A stretch of DNA of 64,000 nt, from assembly GCA_022606135.1 (NCBI GenBank), contig JABYQN010000004.1:3186299-3250298 (forward strand). The letters run 5' to 3'. Below, one piece after another: positions 38,486-64,000 of the stretch. Every line of letters starts with the position of its first letter. Position 1 is the first letter of the stretch. The position numbers and the translations under genes were made by a program. The stretch is from Fomes fomentarius. Taxonomy: Eukaryota; Basidiomycota; Agaricomycetes; Polyporales; Polyporaceae. The notes beneath the pieces are model-generated. The model was not told the DNA's origin, searched no databases, and worked only from the letters and a program-made list of their open reading frames with translations.

Positions 38486-38557
38486 TTCCGACACGGGGAA
38501 TCGAACCCCAGGCTATCGCGTGAGAGGCGATAATGTTAACCACTACACCATATCGGA
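38486..38557 (-). tRNA. tRNA-Glu (CUC)
   Basis: The reverse complement folds as a complete 72-nt tRNA. The acceptor stem TCCGATA pairs with TGTCGGA, with one T.G pair, followed by discriminator A. The D arm contains GTGTAGTGGTTAAC (A box), the anticodon stem ATCGC/GCGAT closes a seven-base loop CTCTCAC with anticodon CUC, and the T arm holds GGTTCGATTCC (B box). There is no intron. CUC reads GAG, so it inserts glutamate. It stands alone with its own T6 stop and marks ordinary chromosomal sequence to the right of the array. Confidence 0.97.
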
Positions 38558-54640: not shown

Positions 54641-55645
54641 TTCCTAGAGATTTCACTGGGATGCCAAGGCCCATTATATGCAAAAGATATATACGTGTGC
54701 ATCCCTGGCTTGAGAATTGCATCTGGGATTGTTTTGAGCCTTTGACCAGGAGTTAACCCAGGAATGCCTTTGATATCTATCATTTTATCCATGGGAGTCT
54801 GAGATTTCCGAGTGATATCCTTGTCATGCCCATGTGGTTGAATGCGATGGGCCAGGAAATGAATCATAACAAGAGGAATTCCAGTAAATTACCAGCCAAA
54901 GGCCAGGGAAAGATTCCTTGATTGGGCAGATACAAACGGCAATTGTTTCCATTCACACAACAGGGCACGACTTCGAAATGGTATGGAAACTATACACCAC
55001 TAGTCGACTGGCAGTGGGCAGTGATAGACTTGACAGTGGGGCTGGGATGGCTAGCAGAAAGCAGGGTGCAGCGGGGCGTGCGCACCCTACGCATGGTGGC
55101 AGTGGCAGGGCAATGGTGGAGTGGTTGAAGATGGTGCCCGCAGCACAGCAGCCAATAAGACAAGCGAGCCACCGCCCACATATACCTGTGTGAGGGCAGT
55201 GGTTGAAGATGGTTGAAATGTGAAGTCAGCAGCAGGCGTGCGTACCCTACGCACGGTCATGATGGTGGAGTGGCATTGCTCCCAGACAGGTGCGTACCCT
55301 ACGCACATTGACAGAGGGGTTGCGCGTGCACAGGCAGTGGGTGGACGGATGAGGGGACAGGTGGCAGTGGTGAGTAAGCCAGCGAGGCATGCGCAGGGTG
55401 CGCACAGGCAGTGGGTGAGGTCAGTGTGGATGCTGCTACGGAGTGGGTGGCCAGCGATGGGGTGATGGGTGGGTGTTTTGAAGGCTATGATGAAGCTGTG
55501 AGCTAAGACAGCTTGCAAGCAAGCATGTTAGAGGGTGTGCGTCAATGTTGGAAGAGAGCAGCCGGTTGGTGTCATCCCGGACAGTGGCAGGTGCGCAATG
55601 TGAGAGAGAGAGAGCGCAATCAGATTTGCACTAACACTATGAAGC
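54641..55645. other. Proximal subtelomeric non-coding DNA with repeated segments
   Basis: No gene. AT-richer at first (to about 54,960), then G-rich with repeated phrases such as CAGTGG, GGTTGAAGATGG and ATGGTGGAGTGG. Two perfect palindromes, GTGCGTA and TACGCAC around CCC, lie at 55,238-55,254 and 55,290-55,306, and an imperfect third at about 55,078-55,094. They are part of a duplicated segment (about 55,078-55,140 and 55,238-55,275). Confidence 0.55.
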
Positions 55646-55668
55646 CGGCATTATGCCCCATAATGCCG
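55646..55668. promoter_or_regulatory. Perfect palindrome upstream of the helicase minisatellite
   Basis: Ten-base arms CGGCATTATG and CATAATGCCG flank the spacer CCC. The same CCC-spacer layout occurs in the two upstream palindromes. It abuts the minisatellite and lies about 375 bases before the helicase start. It could bind a dimeric factor or form a hairpin; neither is shown. Confidence 0.5.
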
Positions 55669-55669
55669 T

Positions 55670-55900
55670 TAGCGCCTGGTCAGTTTGGCGCCTGGTCAGT
55701 TTGGCGCCCACCCCACTTAGGTGCCGCACCTGGTCACTTAGACGCTGCCTGGTCACTTTAGCGCTGCCCTGGTCAGTTTGGCGCTGCCTGGTCACTTAGG
55801 CGCCTCCTGGTTCTCTTAGCGCCTCCTGGTCACTTTGGCGCCGCCTGGTCAGTTTGGCGCCGCCCTGGTCACTTTGGCGCTGCCTGGTCCTCTTAGCGCC
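55670..55900. repeat. Minisatellite of about 20-base units, core CCTGGTCA..GGCGCC
   Basis: Eleven recognisable copies of CCTGGTC(A/C), the next bases alternating CACTTT, CAGTTT, CACTTA or CTCTTA and then a self-complementary GGCGCC or its variants AGCGCT, AGCGCC, GGCGCT. Spacing is mostly 18-21 bases (CCTGGT starts near 55,676, 55,691, 55,730, 55,748, 55,768, 55,787, 55,805, 55,824, 55,844, 55,864, 55,883). It ends 28 bases before the TATA-like box of the helicase gene, so it occupies the upstream activating position. Confidence 0.8.
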
Positions 55901-59000: not shown

Positions 59001-61855
59001 TCTGCGCAGGCTGGACACTCTCACAGAGTGGATACTCTGCGGTATGGTGTTACGGACCGGGCGTCTACTGGTCTGGCAGAGGACTATATCGGTCCTTTCT
59101 TCACTACCTCTGTTAAATGGCACCATGTGCTACGTCTAGTGCCTGGTAAGCTTGACTTCTGTCACTGCTATCACTTATACTTATGCTGATATAAAATAGG
59201 CGGACAGCGTCTTCAGTTGGCTGACACTACAAGGGATAAGTACACAGCACCGCCTCCCCGTTCCCTCCTCTCTCAAGTAAAACAAGAAGAGGTGGACCTC
59301 GTAGCCTCTGCTGTGTGGGAGAAGATCGAGCCTCGACTGACTGCAATGGAGAAGAAGCTTGAAGAAGTCGCCACAACTCGAGGATTGCAAGACATGTTTG
59401 CACAGCTGCAGCAGATGTGGGCTACGGGACAGCCTAAGACTTCTCCTCCACGCTCCGCTAACAATGGTATGTATTTATCAGACTGCATACGTGTTTTACT
59501 CTAATAATATGCACAGACCACAACATCGATGACCTATATGCGGATCCTAACGTTCATACTCCACCTCCTATCCCACAGCCCGCCTCATCCTCTTCTACTT
59601 CTGCTATACACCATCAACTACAACCACAATCACCACCTCGCCCTGCTTTGCGTGTCACCCTGCCACCTATAATTGTGTCGAATCCCTCTCCTCCTGTGCC
59701 TTCTCCTATTGTGCCGCCACCAGCAAGAGGTGAGTGTCTATTATATCATTGAGAGCTCTGCTGACTATATCTGTATAATAGTGCCTTCAGAGGATGAAGC
59801 ATTGCAAGGACTCCGCACAGTTCTGGCTAATCCTCATGCACAATGGCGGAACGAAGGACAGAAGCTAGCTGTAATGGCCGGGCTCCAGTGGCAAAGCGAC
59901 GTTGTTGTTATTCTGCCCACTGGGTCTGGGAAGAGTGCAATTGTCGCAACCATTGCGCAAGTGGAAGTTAACAGAATCACAGCTGTGCTTTGTCCCCTTC
60001 GTTCACTGCTTCAAGACTGGCACCGGCGACTCGAGGCGCTCCGCATTCCCCATACTCTCTTTGACTCTGCGCACCCTGAGATTAATGACCAACACTCGCT
60101 GGTTCTTGTCTCCCTTGACTTGTCTACCACTGATATGTGGAGGCAAGCAGTTGCAAAACTGCGAGCCGACATCCCTCTCTGCCGAATTGTCATCGACGAG
60201 GCGCACTTGGTGTTGACTGAAGGGGAGTACAGGCAGGTTATGAGTCGGGTCAAGGAGTTGCGTCTTCTCAATGTCCAAATCATGCTCTTGTCTGCCACGA
60301 TTGCTCCTATCTCCATTCCCTCCCTTTCCACGACCTTCAACTTGTCATCCAAGGTGGAGATTATCCGTGCTACCTCCAACCGGCCCGAGCTCCACTTTAT
60401 GCCACTGGTAAAGAAGCCATGTGTCGATGCAAAGGTGTGTATTGCATGTTTGGATTGTGCATATAACTCTAACAAATATATGAACAGACCGCTAAAACAA
60501 TTGCAGCTGAAGTGCTACTGCCTTTGCAGTTGAAGCGCTGTGATTCCAAGAGTCGTGCATTGGTCTTTGTGCAGCGCATCGCAGATGGCAAAACTCTGGC
60601 AAAGGCGCTAAACTGTGGCTTCTATCGTGGCTCAAGTGACCGTGATTTCACCCCCAAGCAAAGGGATGCTACTGCCCTGCGCTGGTGGAATGGAGTCGAG
60701 ATTGAAGATAAAGTCATGGTGGCTACAGATGCTTTTGGCCCTGGGAACGACTATCCCCATGTGCGCTGGGTGTACTTTGTGGGAGTACCCCGTGGAGTGG
60801 TGGACTTTCTGCAAATGGCAGGGCGTGGAGGTCGCGATGGTGACAAGGCAACAATCCAGATCTACATCCTCACTCAAGCTGGATTGCCATCAATCACGGG
60901 AACTGGTGAGACCGCTCGACACCTTGGCACTTCGTCCTTTCAGCCAGTGTTGAAAGACTCTGAGCGGATGTGCTGGCGACGTCTATTCACCAAGTTCCTA
61001 GATGGAGTGGAGCTTAGCTGTTTGGACAGCGAGGTGGATTGGAGGTGCCCGTGTTGCGCTAAACTGTCCAATGGTTCGATTCCTTCACAATGGTTCCAAC
61101 TCACGAACGGTAGACCTACCTCTGTGGTCCCTACTCTACCTCCTGCACGTCTCCTCCCCTCTACTACTGCACTGTCTCCTCAAGTCGGTGCAGTGCGAGC
61201 ACGTGCCCCTTCCACCTCCTTTGCCTTGGATTTTGATACCGTTCGGGCGTCTACTTCAGCTGGTGCATCGCTGCGTGGTTCTGCATTCTTGGAACCTGTA
61301 CAGGCAGCCAAGCGGGCAAAGTTGGATAGAGAATCTGCTCTAGATCCTTTGGTCAAGCGGTATCAGGCAGCCGCAGACAAGTTCTCTGGTCATTGTGCTA
61401 TATGCATGATGGCTGGTGGAACTTGGCAAGCTACAGGCAGCCACAACCTACTGCAATGTCCTAGCATGCAGGCACTGCTGACGGAGACCAAGTTCAACCC
61501 TCTGCGGACTGCTGGCCAATACTTGGATTGGAGAAGGGCGTTGCGGTATCCAGGGTCAGTTGGTGCTTGCTTCAAGTGTCATATGCCATTCCTACAAGAT
61601 CGGTTGCATCCTGCGAAGGTTGGAAAGGAGTCAAACTGTCCAGCTGGATGGTTGGATATGGTTGGACCTATGGTGTATTGGGGATACTTTGATGATGGGG
61701 TGCGAGAAGCAGGAGAGCAGCATTTTAGAGTGAGGTGGGGGAATGATGTGGCATTTGGGGCATGGTTGATGCGAAAGGAGAAGAATGAGCAGTATGCTAA
61801 TATGGCACGGTTCTGGTTATGGCTAGTAGAGTTTTGGGTTAGTACGCATACTTAG
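56043..61855 (+). CDS. Telomere-linked OrsD-RecQ helicase
   Basis: Ten exons (56043-56300, 56351-56410, 56469-56645, 56700-57451, 57502-57895, 57945-59145, 59200-59466, 59517-59729, 59782-60434, 60488-61855) give an unbroken 1,780-residue frame. All nine introns are about 50-58 bases. Residues about 170-300 look like an OrsD (formerly DUF3505) domain with two fingers: C190, C193, H205, H210 and C257, C260, H273, H278. A long helical middle (about 415-950) is unassigned. A Pro/Ser linker leads to a RecQ-type helicase: LPTGSGKS (1152-1159), DEAH (1246-1249), SAT (1278-1280), a motif V ATDAFGPGNDYP, and QMAGRGGRDG (1434-1443). A cysteine-rich end follows (CWRR..., CPCC, CAIC, CFKC). RecQ genes next to telomeres are known in several fungi. 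It is read toward the telomere, which begins 2 kb downstream. Its role at the telomere is inferred. Confidence 0.9.
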
Positions 61856-61909
61856 GAACAGTATAAAACATGTGGCTGTGGTACCATAGGCACTCCAGTG
61901 ATGGACATG

Positions 61910-62450
61910 GTAGCCACAGTTTGTGTGATCGTAACGGTGGTAATTACATGCTATACTGATTGTTTGTTAAGGAGTTATAAGCAATACAAGGTGGTGCTCA
62001 AGCGCGGGAAAAGATGCTAAAAGGGGCAGCTGGCCGGAGTTGGCGCCAAAATCACGAAAAAAGCGCCCAAAAGGTCGGGTCACGCGAATTTTGACATTTG
62101 TGCATTTTGTAGCCACAGTCAATGCGATCCTAATGGTGCTAGTAAGAAGGCATACTGATGATTAGTTATGGAGTTACAGCCAATACAAACATGCCCAAAT
62201 GCGGAAGGAAGCGCGCTAAAAAGGGCAATTGGCCGGATCTGGCGCCAAAATCACGAAAAAAGCGCCCAAAAGGTCGGGTCACGCGAATTTTGACATTTGT
62301 GGTTTTTGTAGCCACAGTCAATGCGGTTCTAATGGTGCTAGTAAGAAGGCATACTGATGATCAGTTAAGGAGTTATAAGCGATACAAGATGGCGCTTAAG
62401 CGCGGGAAAAGGCGCCAAACAAGGCAGGTTGCCGCCACATGGGTGGCTGT
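61910..62450. repeat. Three tandem 199-bp subtelomeric repeats
   Basis: Copies begin with GTAGCCACAG at 61,910, 62,109 and 62,308; the third is partial. Shared phrases include GGAGTTA(T/C)A(A/G), GCGCGGGAAAA, TTGGCGCCAAAATCACGAAAA and CGGGTCACGCGAATTTTGACATT. They start 55 bases after the helicase stop and separate it from the terminal repeats. Confidence 0.8.
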
Positions 62451-62579
62451 GCTTTGGGCGTCTATTTTCAAACTCCGACTGAACTCGTATATATAGGGCT
62501 ACTGGGCCCCGGGATTTCCCACCCTCTCTTGACCTCGAACCACCACCTTCCTTTTTGGGTGCTCCCACACATTTTAGCC
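62451..62579. other. Junction between the two repeat families
   Basis: Contains TATATA (62,490) and an unrepeated stretch ending TTTTTGGGTGCTCCCACACATT. It may contain a promoter for the terminal repeat transcript, since TATATA lies about 90 bases before the first 79-bp unit. This is speculative. Confidence 0.35.
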
Positions 62580-62963
62580 GAGTGCACTGTTAAGTGCATG
62601 TGAGGTGTCTGCAGAGAGCGTACTCTCTGTGGCGGCTTACACTTGGCTTCTGCTGAGTGCACTGTTAAGTGCATGTGAGGTGTCCATGGAGGGCGTACCC
62701 TCCATGGCGGCTTGCACTCAGCTGTGGGTCGCTGAGTGCACTGTTAAGTGCATGCAAGGTGTCCGTGAAGGGCGTACCCTTCATGGCGGCTTGCACTTGG
62801 CTGTGGGTTGCTGAGTGCACTGTTAAGTGCATGTGAGGTGTCCATGGAGGGCGTACCCTCCATGGCGGCTTGCACTCAGCTGTGGGTCGCTGAGTGCACT
62901 GTTAAGTGCATGCAAGGTGTCTGTGAAGGGCGTACCCTTCATGGCGGCTTACACTCAGCTGTG
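62580..62963 (+). repeat. Five 79-bp subtelomeric repeats, each with two hairpins
   Basis: Units begin GAGTGCACTG at 62,580, 62,655, 62,734, 62,813 and 62,892 (spacing 75, 79, 79, 79). Each has a first hairpin TGCACT/AGTGCA around GTTA, then a second with ten-base arms around CGTA. Second-hairpin arms: 62,609-62,618 with 62,623-62,632; 62,684-62,693 with 62,698-62,707; 62,763-62,772 with 62,777-62,786; 62,842-62,851 with 62,856-62,865; 62,921-62,930 with 62,935-62,944. The arms differ between units but stay paired. Two forms (ATGGAGGG and GTGAAGGG) alternate in units 2-5. Confidence 0.9.
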
Positions 62964-63240
62964 GGTGGGCTTTGACAGGGGTGAGGGCCACGCCGTCCCT
63001 CTGGGACGGATAGCGTCTTGCCATACCTATCTCGGTCTCAGGACCGTTGGTTTGTGCAAGGCTTGCCCGCACCTCTGTTGCCCTATGAGAGGGCCGTTGA
63101 CCTCTGTTGATGCGTAAGAGGCCACTGCTGCGATGCCATCCCCCGTTGACCCGTTGCGTACTTCGGAGACCACCCGTTGTGTGGACTAGGGATGGTTGCA
63201 GTGGTGGTCCGCACCAGAGGTCCCTTTTGGCGTTGTTTTA
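62964..63240 (+). repeat. Structured subtelomeric module, copy 1
   Basis: About 275 bases, repeated 460 bases downstream (63,424). Helices seen: CCGTCCC (62,993-62,999) with GGGACGG (63,003-63,009); CGGTC (63,033-63,037) with GACCG (63,042-63,046); CCACTGC (63,122-63,128) with GCAGTGG (63,198-63,204); CCATCCC (63,136-63,142) with GGGATGG (63,189-63,195), the last two nested. No protein-coding signal. Confidence 0.7.
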
Positions 63241-63273
63241 TGCACTGTGGTGCAGATTTGGGGGGTTTGTAGT

Positions 63274-63423
63274 CAAGTGCACTGTAGTGCATGCAGGGTG
63301 TCCATGGAGGGCGTACCCTTCATGGCGGCTTGCACTTGGCTGTGGGTTGCTGATTGCACTGTTAAGTGTATGCGAGGTGTCCATGGAGGGTGTACCCTCT
63401 ATGGTGGCTAGCACTCAGCCGTA
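63274..63423 (+). repeat. Two further 79-bp repeats (units 6 and 7)
   Basis: Between the two structured modules. Unit 6 begins near 63,274 and has second-hairpin arms at 63,302-63,311 and 63,316-63,325. Unit 7 begins near 63,353 with arms at 63,381-63,390 and 63,395-63,404, and loop TGTA. Unit 6 has a shortened first loop (GT); unit 7 has a G.T pair in the first stem. Both second stems keep all ten pairs if G.U is allowed on the plus strand. Confidence 0.85.
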
Positions 63424-63695
63424 GGTGGGCTGTGACAGGGGTGAGGGCCACGCCGTCCTGCTGGGACGGATAGTGTTTTGCCATTCCTATCTTGGTCTCA
63501 GGACCATTGGTTTGTGCAAAACTTGCCCGCATCCCTGTTGCCCTTTGCCAGGGGGTGTTGACCTCTGTTGATGCGTAAGAGGCCACTGCTGCAATACCAT
63601 CCCCCGTTGACCCGTTGCGTACTTCGGAGACCACCCGTTGTGTGGACTTGGGATGGCAGCAGTGGTGGTCGGCACCAGGGGTCTCTGTTTGTGCT
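63424..63695 (+). repeat. Structured subtelomeric module, copy 2
   Basis: Diverged copy of 62,964-63,240. Equivalent helices: CCGTCCT (63,453-63,459) with GGGACGG (63,463-63,469), closing with T.G; TGGTC (63,493-63,497) with GACCA (63,502-63,506), where both partners changed relative to copy 1; CCACTGCTG (63,583-63,591) with CAGCAGTGG (63,657-63,665); CCATCCC (63,597-63,603) with GGGATGG (63,650-63,656). Confidence 0.7.
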
Positions 63696-63874
63696 GTTGA
63701 TGGTGAGATGCACTGTCTATGGGAGGTGATGGTGAGTGGGTGTGTGTTGGGAGTGTTGGGCATGTTGTGGAGTGGGGTGTCAAGGGTGTAGAAGGTGTTC
63801 ATGGAGAGGATATGTAGATTGAGTAATGGGGTTAAGGGAGGGGGGTTTAGTGGAGGGAGGGAGGTAAGCTATGG
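63696..63874. other. G-rich junction to the telomere
   Basis: GT-rich on the plus strand (phrases GGTGATGG, GTGGGTGTG, GGGAGTGTTGGG, GGGAGGGAGG). No gene. Such strand-biased DNA is usual just inside telomeres. Confidence 0.6.
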
Positions 63875-64000
63875 GTTAGGGTTAGGGTTAGGGTTAGGGT
63901 TAGGGTTAGGGTTAGGGTTAGGGTTAGGGTTAGGGTTAGGGTTAGGGTTAGGGTTAGGGTTAGGGTTAGGGTTAGGGTTAGGTTAGGGTTAGGTTAGGGT
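63875..64000 (+). repeat. Telomere, (TTAGGG)n
   Basis: About 21 copies of TTAGGG to the end of the window, G-rich strand running outward as expected for a right chromosome end. The last 30 bases contain two TTAGG units (one G short), which may be real telomerase variation or read error. Confidence 0.99.

Follow-up and report, generated by a model that had tools for sequence, protein, structure and literature searches.

The window, by which we mean the whole 64,000-nucleotide stretch of Fomes fomentarius DNA analyzed here, lies at the right end of contig C4 and ends where that contig (3250298 bases) ends; its plus strand reads toward the telomere. A spliced plus-strand gene ends at position 61855, upstream of a tandem array of structured repeat units. 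Matches to the OrsD, DEAD (with ResIII) and Helicase_C domains were found in three of the five exon frames tested for this gene, the other two giving no match. Joining seven exons yields an open protein of 1615 residues. Of its ten database matches, three have 22 to 25% identity; the remaining seven, with 41 to 51%, are hypothetical proteins from Trametes, Cubamyces, Lenzites and Dichomitus. We infer that the gene is a telomere-linked helicase gene. Fission yeast tlh and Magnaporthe TLH are telomere-linked helicases, and helicase genes recur in fungal subtelomeres, where their role is, to our knowledge, unsettled.

Several further sequences accompany the helicase gene. Upstream of it lie a palindromic motif marking the start of the helicase element (TAACACTATGAAGCCGGCATTATG..., 55631-55668) and GC-rich tandem repeats of 19, 39 and 77 bp (55672-55900). 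The motif has 16 matches when up to two mismatches are allowed, 15 of them in one orientation, on contigs C1, C4, C8, C10, C11, C15, C17, C19 and C21. Tandem repeats of 199 bp occupy 62016-62413, between the helicase gene and the promoter candidate of the putative RNA, and have relatives at the ends of C17 and C21. At some contig ends the telomere repeats start inside the helicase element, within the gene on C15 and C19 and within the 199-bp repeats on C21, as if these ends had healed at different places. Across the genome, a four-unit TTAGGG pattern gave 172 overlapping forward matches and no reverse match, and at least 10 contigs carry terminal telomere repeats, every one at the right end. 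Such one-sidedness is odd for complete chromosomes, and assembly orientation or construction may lie behind it.

The features between the 199-bp repeats and the contig end are collected in Table 1.

Table 1. Promoter candidate, leader, repeat units, folded domains and telomere tract in the window
Feature	Position	Strand	Basis
Core promoter candidate	62466..62495	+	TTTCAAACTCCGA (62466-62478) and TATATATA (62488-62495), read in sequence
Conserved 17-nt leader CTCTTGACCTCGAACCA	62526..62542	+	Five matches in genome, one before each locus
Unit 1, predicted three-way-junction RNA module, 71 nt	62577..62647	+	Model R1, 93.0 bits
Unit 2	62652..62722	+	Model R1, 98.6 bits
Unit 3	62731..62801	+	Model R1, 94.8 bits
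Unit 4	62810..62880	+	Model R1, 98.6 bits
Unit 5	62889..62959	+	Model R1, 93.7 bits
Folded domain d1, with two predicted large stem-loops and YGTTG present seven times	62965..63225	+	Similarity, fold z, motif count
Unit 6, 2-nt deletion in small hairpin loop	63272..63340	+	Model R1, 85.7 bits; alignment
Unit 7	63349..63419	+	Model R1, 83.8 bits
Folded domain d2, second copy, 89% to d1	63425..63686	+	Similarity
Decayed unit in G/T-rich tail before telomere, pairing lost	63767..63837	+	5/10 hairpin pairs standard
Telomere repeats TTAGGG	63873..64000 (about 128 bases)	+	Contig end

Array loci, unit fold and flanking elements

A first-pass annotation of this DNA had recognized seven alignable units, and these are borne out, with coordinates from 62577 to 63419. 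The hairpins it described also stand, but the whole proved larger than described, since an outer stem, a domain of about 265 nt and a leader had been missed. DNA searches of the genome (40.9 Mb in 24 contigs), whose counts are lower bounds, confined the repeat to contigs C4, C10, C11 and C8. There are five array loci, all at most 55 kb from the right ends of these four contigs, with seven units on C4, eight on C10, three on C11, and 18 and four in two arrays on C8. The 40 units extracted genome-wide represent 17 distinct 71-nt sequences in two groups, C4-type and C8 copies, which are about 80 to 84% alike; several unit sequences are common to C4, C10 and C11. Successive units are mostly spaced by 79 or 82 nt, a few by 75 or 81, and 2 to 11 modules stand in tandem per run.

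On C4, C10 and C11 the array directly follows the same helicase gene end. The flanks of the C8 arrays differ from these helicase-gene flanks, and two reading frames tested there had no Pfam match. The two C8 arrays (C8:2453536-2458774 and C8:2501130-2505218) are about 48 kb apart, with identical upstream flanks of 1417 bases and downstream flanks that differ at three sites in about 1.5 kb. Because arrays of 18 and four units sit between such near-identical flanks, unit copy number changes fast. Telomere repeats adjoin two of the five loci, C4 and C10. The C11 array is 2.7 kb from the telomere, and the beginning of another helicase element, read by eye, falls in between; on C8, about 5 and 52 kb separate the ends of the two loci from the telomere. 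Six other telomeric ends (C1, C15, C17, C18, C19 and C21) carry no array in their last 1.6 to 3.1 kb.

Each unit is predicted to fold into a three-way junction made of a ten-pair hairpin with an additional helix beneath it, a small hairpin and an outer closing stem. In the six distinct units tested out of 17, the fold was more stable than that of dinucleotide shuffles (200 each), with z scores of -3.2 to -6.7. Within two predicted transcripts comprising nine units, mean pairing probability was at least 0.97 for the small hairpin and at least 0.87 for the ten-pair hairpin. The outer stem reached only 0 to 0.55 in the same nine units because of competing pairing, including pairing between neighboring units. 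Outer-stem pairs are standard in 274 of 280 cases within units and in 211 of 217 between neighbors; the sequences thus fit both modes of closure alike.

Every run of units is followed by the domain of about 265 nt. Copy d1 is 96-97% identical to the C10 and C11 copies and 94% identical to the full-length C8 copies; between C8 and C4, the domain (94%) is better conserved than the modules (about 80%). Predicted folding energies of the C4 copy are -127.6 kcal/mol for the plus strand (z -4.73) and -109.5 for the minus strand (z -2.79). Four of its 85 predicted pairs show double changes, against 1.4 ± 0.9 in shuffles (5 of 500 reach the observed value). Paired cells (128/500), further pair types (499/500) and the covariation score (281/500) showed no excess over shuffles, and because most comparative measures are not above shuffles, the predicted domain structure rests mainly on folding. 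The C4 domain is also rich in YGTTG, a motif picked after the sequence had been inspected, with seven occurrences where 1.2 are expected, and in CCGTTG, with five where 0.18 are expected; none of 2000 shuffles reached either count. On C4 the last domain ends 187 bases short of the telomere tract, and at the C8b locus BLAST similarity to C4 stops at the 3' end of the domain.

The leader CTCTTGACCTCGAACCA has exactly five matches in the 40.9 Mb, one ahead of each locus; neither the other strand nor a reversed-pattern control gave any match in the whole genome. Upstream of it, the sequence TTTCAA[AG]CTCCGA is present at C4, C10, C11 and both C8 loci. The element TATATATA is absent upstream of both C8 leaders, where the TATA-like AATATCAA is found instead. 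The leader is likely to lie near a transcription start, and we read leader, units and domain as a putative plus-strand transcription unit. Measured from the leader through the last domain, locus length ranges from about 0.5 kb at C11 to 2.3 kb at the first C8 locus.

Searches for known relatives were largely negative. At Rfam gathering scores, the whole window contained only a tRNA (gene at 38486-38557, minus strand), so that the array matches no family. A search restricted to 61800-64000 returned only two microRNA matches with E values of 1.2 and 1.8, far below gathering scores, and four further sequences (L041, L037, L030 and L034) returned none up to E 1. A ribozyme was considered and dropped, there being no Rfam ribozyme match, as was a protein-coding repeat, since most unit spacings (79 and 82) are not multiples of 3. 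Neither of two reading frames across the array had a protein match up to E 10 (7 and 81 candidates). Among viral contigs, an exact 21-mer of the domain had no match, and an exact 17-mer of the unit had three, which we take as chance. The accessible parts of the literature yielded no fungal structured RNA of a comparable kind, which does not prove its absence from print.

Strand asymmetry and probable selection on the fold

The first-pass annotation had counted seven imperfect pairs in the ten-pair hairpin of the window, all G.T on the plus strand (two in unit 1, one in unit 3, two in unit 5, one each in units 6 and 7), and had listed columns 4, 5, 6 and 9 as changing at both partners; both observations were reproduced. 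Its statement that A.C pairs are lacking holds for this hairpin, in the window and in all 40 genomic units, where all 400 pairs are standard, G.T or T.G accounting for 75 and A.C for none. It fails outside that hairpin, where two C.A pairs occur among all helices. Over all helices together, the hairpin included and with pair 23/65 taken at the junction, 1156 of 1160 pairs are standard, 192 of them G.T, the exceptions being the two C.A, one G.A and one T.C. Both C.A pairs fall at columns 25/63, in C4_05 and C10_08; an alternative junction pair, 7/65, would be C.A in three distinct C8 sequences. With the copies from the other loci included, the excess remains (192 G.T against 2 A.C), and the original observation gains strength beyond the window.

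The asymmetry extends to evolutionary events and to folding energy. On the tree of the 17 distinct units, events listed for that tree and counted by hand comprise 20 single changes from Watson-Crick to G.T and one to A.C (sign test, 1.05e-5). The plus strand is predicted to fold better than the minus strand in all 17 distinct units, by 5.0 to 18.6 kcal/mol, and in all 11 domain copies or part-copies. Complete units score 84 to 99 bits with the covariance model on the plus strand and at most 29 on the minus strand, figures of which only the contrast between strands is informative because the model was built from these units.

Variation in the units is concentrated in paired positions: bases vary in 25 of 58 paired columns and in only two of 13 unpaired columns, apart from one 2-nt loop deletion. 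The 29 structural pairs in the 17 distinct units define 493 cells, of which 98.6% are paired, against 95.6 ± 0.5 in shuffles (none of 500 reach the observed value). Six pairs show double changes, both partners differing while pairing is preserved, compared with 3.5 ± 1.1 in shuffles (10/500) and with 0 to 1 in six controls whose partners were slid by one to three columns. Similarly, the covariation score of 0.289 exceeds the 0.218 ± 0.011 of shuffles (0/500); the number of further pair types shows no excess (272/500).

Shared ancestry was taken into account with simulations of neutral change, set to match the variability seen in the 17 units, along their maximum-likelihood tree, with 3000 runs at each of four settings. 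The probability of so few broken pairs was at most 0.0003, and that of six or more double-change pairs was 0.003 to 0.006. Under a second null, which keeps the substitutions of each branch and randomizes their sites, the mean number of paired cells was 459.5 and the maximum 481 in 400 runs, compared with 489 of 493 observed. We also simulated a strand-biased transition at strengths of 1, 3, 10, 30 and 1000. None of the 2000 runs at any strength combined few broken pairs with six double changes; a strong transition bias alone can yield few broken pairs, and then hardly any double changes. All the variation compared is among copies within one genome, where gene conversion, left out of the simulations, blurs the tree. 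These tree simulations reject neutral change and strand-biased mutation as explanations of the entire structure. At the level of individual pairs, the R-scape covariation test that the first-pass annotation had proposed, run as a simplified R-scape-like G-test with APC and a tree-based null, found no single pair significant (the lowest E values were 0.051 for the 29 structural pairs and 4.4 when all pairs were considered).

Decayed copies in the G/T-rich C4 tail, in the G/T-rich C10 tail and at C8:2475684 retain five, five and seven of the ten hairpin pairs, the first two counting as one because the tails are 99% identical. We consider it very probable, judging from the compared sequences, that selection keeps the plus-strand RNA fold. 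Selection on a plus-strand RNA, as initially suggested, agrees with pairing and double changes that exceed what the tree and the tested strand biases produce, and the plus-strand reading also fits the TATA box and conserved leader, which lie upstream in the same orientation.

Possible roles of the putative RNA

The reading we favor is that the array is a multicopy structured noncoding RNA gene whose product would act as a multivalent scaffold; blending all of its steps into a single judgment, we hold it to be moderately probable. Transcription would start near the CTCTTGACCTCGAACCA leader and run toward the telomere, passing through 2 to 11 tandem three-way-junction modules and then the folded domain of about 265 nt. 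The modules would serve as repeated binding sites for an RNA-binding protein, the YGUUG-rich domain would offer a second binding site, and the RNA would be retained at its chromosome end of origin or close by. A scaffold is suggested because the modules are repeated, separately folding and variable in number, with near-invariant loops, and the variable number of modules between loci fits independent, additive modules. More tentatively, and with some doubt, we propose protein binding by both modules and YGUUG-rich domain in a scaffold held near the chromosome end.

Repeat-built structured long noncoding RNAs are familiar from Xist A-repeat, roX and NEAT1. The array resembles these in that tandem structured modules could bind one protein many times; it differs in having no Rfam relation to a known family. 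Hammerhead satellites likewise consist of tandem units that fold to a three-way junction, but the array has no Rfam ribozyme match, and its junction presumably lacks the hammerhead motifs.

A different use of the same fold would be as a Dicer substrate, small RNAs derived from the units silencing the subtelomeric helicase genes or repeats. In fission yeast, RNAi acts at tlh-linked repeats; a 71-nt unit with a long near-perfect stem is about the size of a microRNA precursor, and both sub-threshold Rfam matches in 61800-64000 are microRNA hairpins, if insignificant ones (E 1.2 and 1.8). We nonetheless think it unlikely, since Dicer has no need of a three-way junction or of loops as constant as these (variable columns number 2 of 13 among unpaired and 25 of 58 among paired positions), and the conserved domain would be left unexplained.

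The array could also be a satellite, selfish or dying, whose RNA is a passenger spread by telomere-linked helicase elements and keeps its structure only for its own amplification. Its position directly behind the same helicase gene end on C4, C10 and C11 would be expected of such a passenger, and the decayed copies on C8 (C8:2475684) and in the two telomeric tails (C4 and C10) could be its relics. The C8 arrays, flanked by other sequences with two reading frames that lack a Pfam match, speak against it, and we regard this weakly tested alternative as improbable.

According to the first-pass annotation, the RNA would be TERRA-like, read in the same sense as the telomere repeats. Fungal TERRA is reviewed in PMC12566771, whose accessible parts mention no structured RNA array. 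As a rival reading, the region would be a TERRA promoter, its RNA entering TTAGGG with the structured part as its 5' portion. Like TERRA and ARRET, the putative RNA is subtelomeric and predicted to be read toward the telomere; the TATA box and leader are oriented that way, telomere repeats lie just downstream at C4 and C10, and 187 bases separate the last C4 domain from the tract. By location, the reading fits only at these two loci. It does not fit at C11, where a helicase-element start intervenes, or on C8, where the telomere is about 5 and 52 kb away. TERRA is defined by its UUAGGG tract, whereas here the structured array and domain are conserved and three of the five loci have no adjoining telomere tract. 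Sequence similarity of C8 to C4 extends no further than the domain end, six other telomeric ends have no array in their last 1.6 to 3.1 kb, and we judge a TERRA promoter quite improbable.

An effect on DNA alone, with cruciform extrusion or quasi-palindrome template switching plus homogenization keeping the arms complementary and no function for an RNA, is very improbable: the copies are indeed homogenized, with unit sequences common to C4, C10 and C11 and near-identically flanked C8 arrays of 18 and four units, but these processes should treat both strands alike and G.T should then equal A.C, so that strand-symmetric effects do not explain 192 G.T against 2 A.C (20 against 1 as tree events), and leader and domain remain unaccounted for.

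Returning to the structured RNA gene that we favor, on C4, C10 and C11 the putative gene follows closely behind a telomere-linked helicase gene, of which the copy in the window carries OrsD, DEAD and Helicase_C domains; the C8 arrays adjoin other sequences. RecQ helicases of subtelomeres are known from Agaricus bisporus var. burnettii (PMC7473861), Ganoderma leucocontextum (PMC10817607) and Ustilago maydis (PMC10532341); the accessible parts of these Agaricus, Ganoderma and Ustilago (UTASa) accounts mention no structured RNA alongside. The full proposition, an undescribed fungal RNA family that travels with telomere-linked helicase elements and serves as a protein scaffold at chromosome ends, is possible, though we place it on the unlikely side. 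If it is true, one subtelomeric element would carry both a helicase and a structured RNA, and a selected structured RNA beside subtelomeric helicase genes would be a concrete partner for them. A subtelomeric "repeat" could then be an RNA gene, one whose fold is kept more than its sequence.
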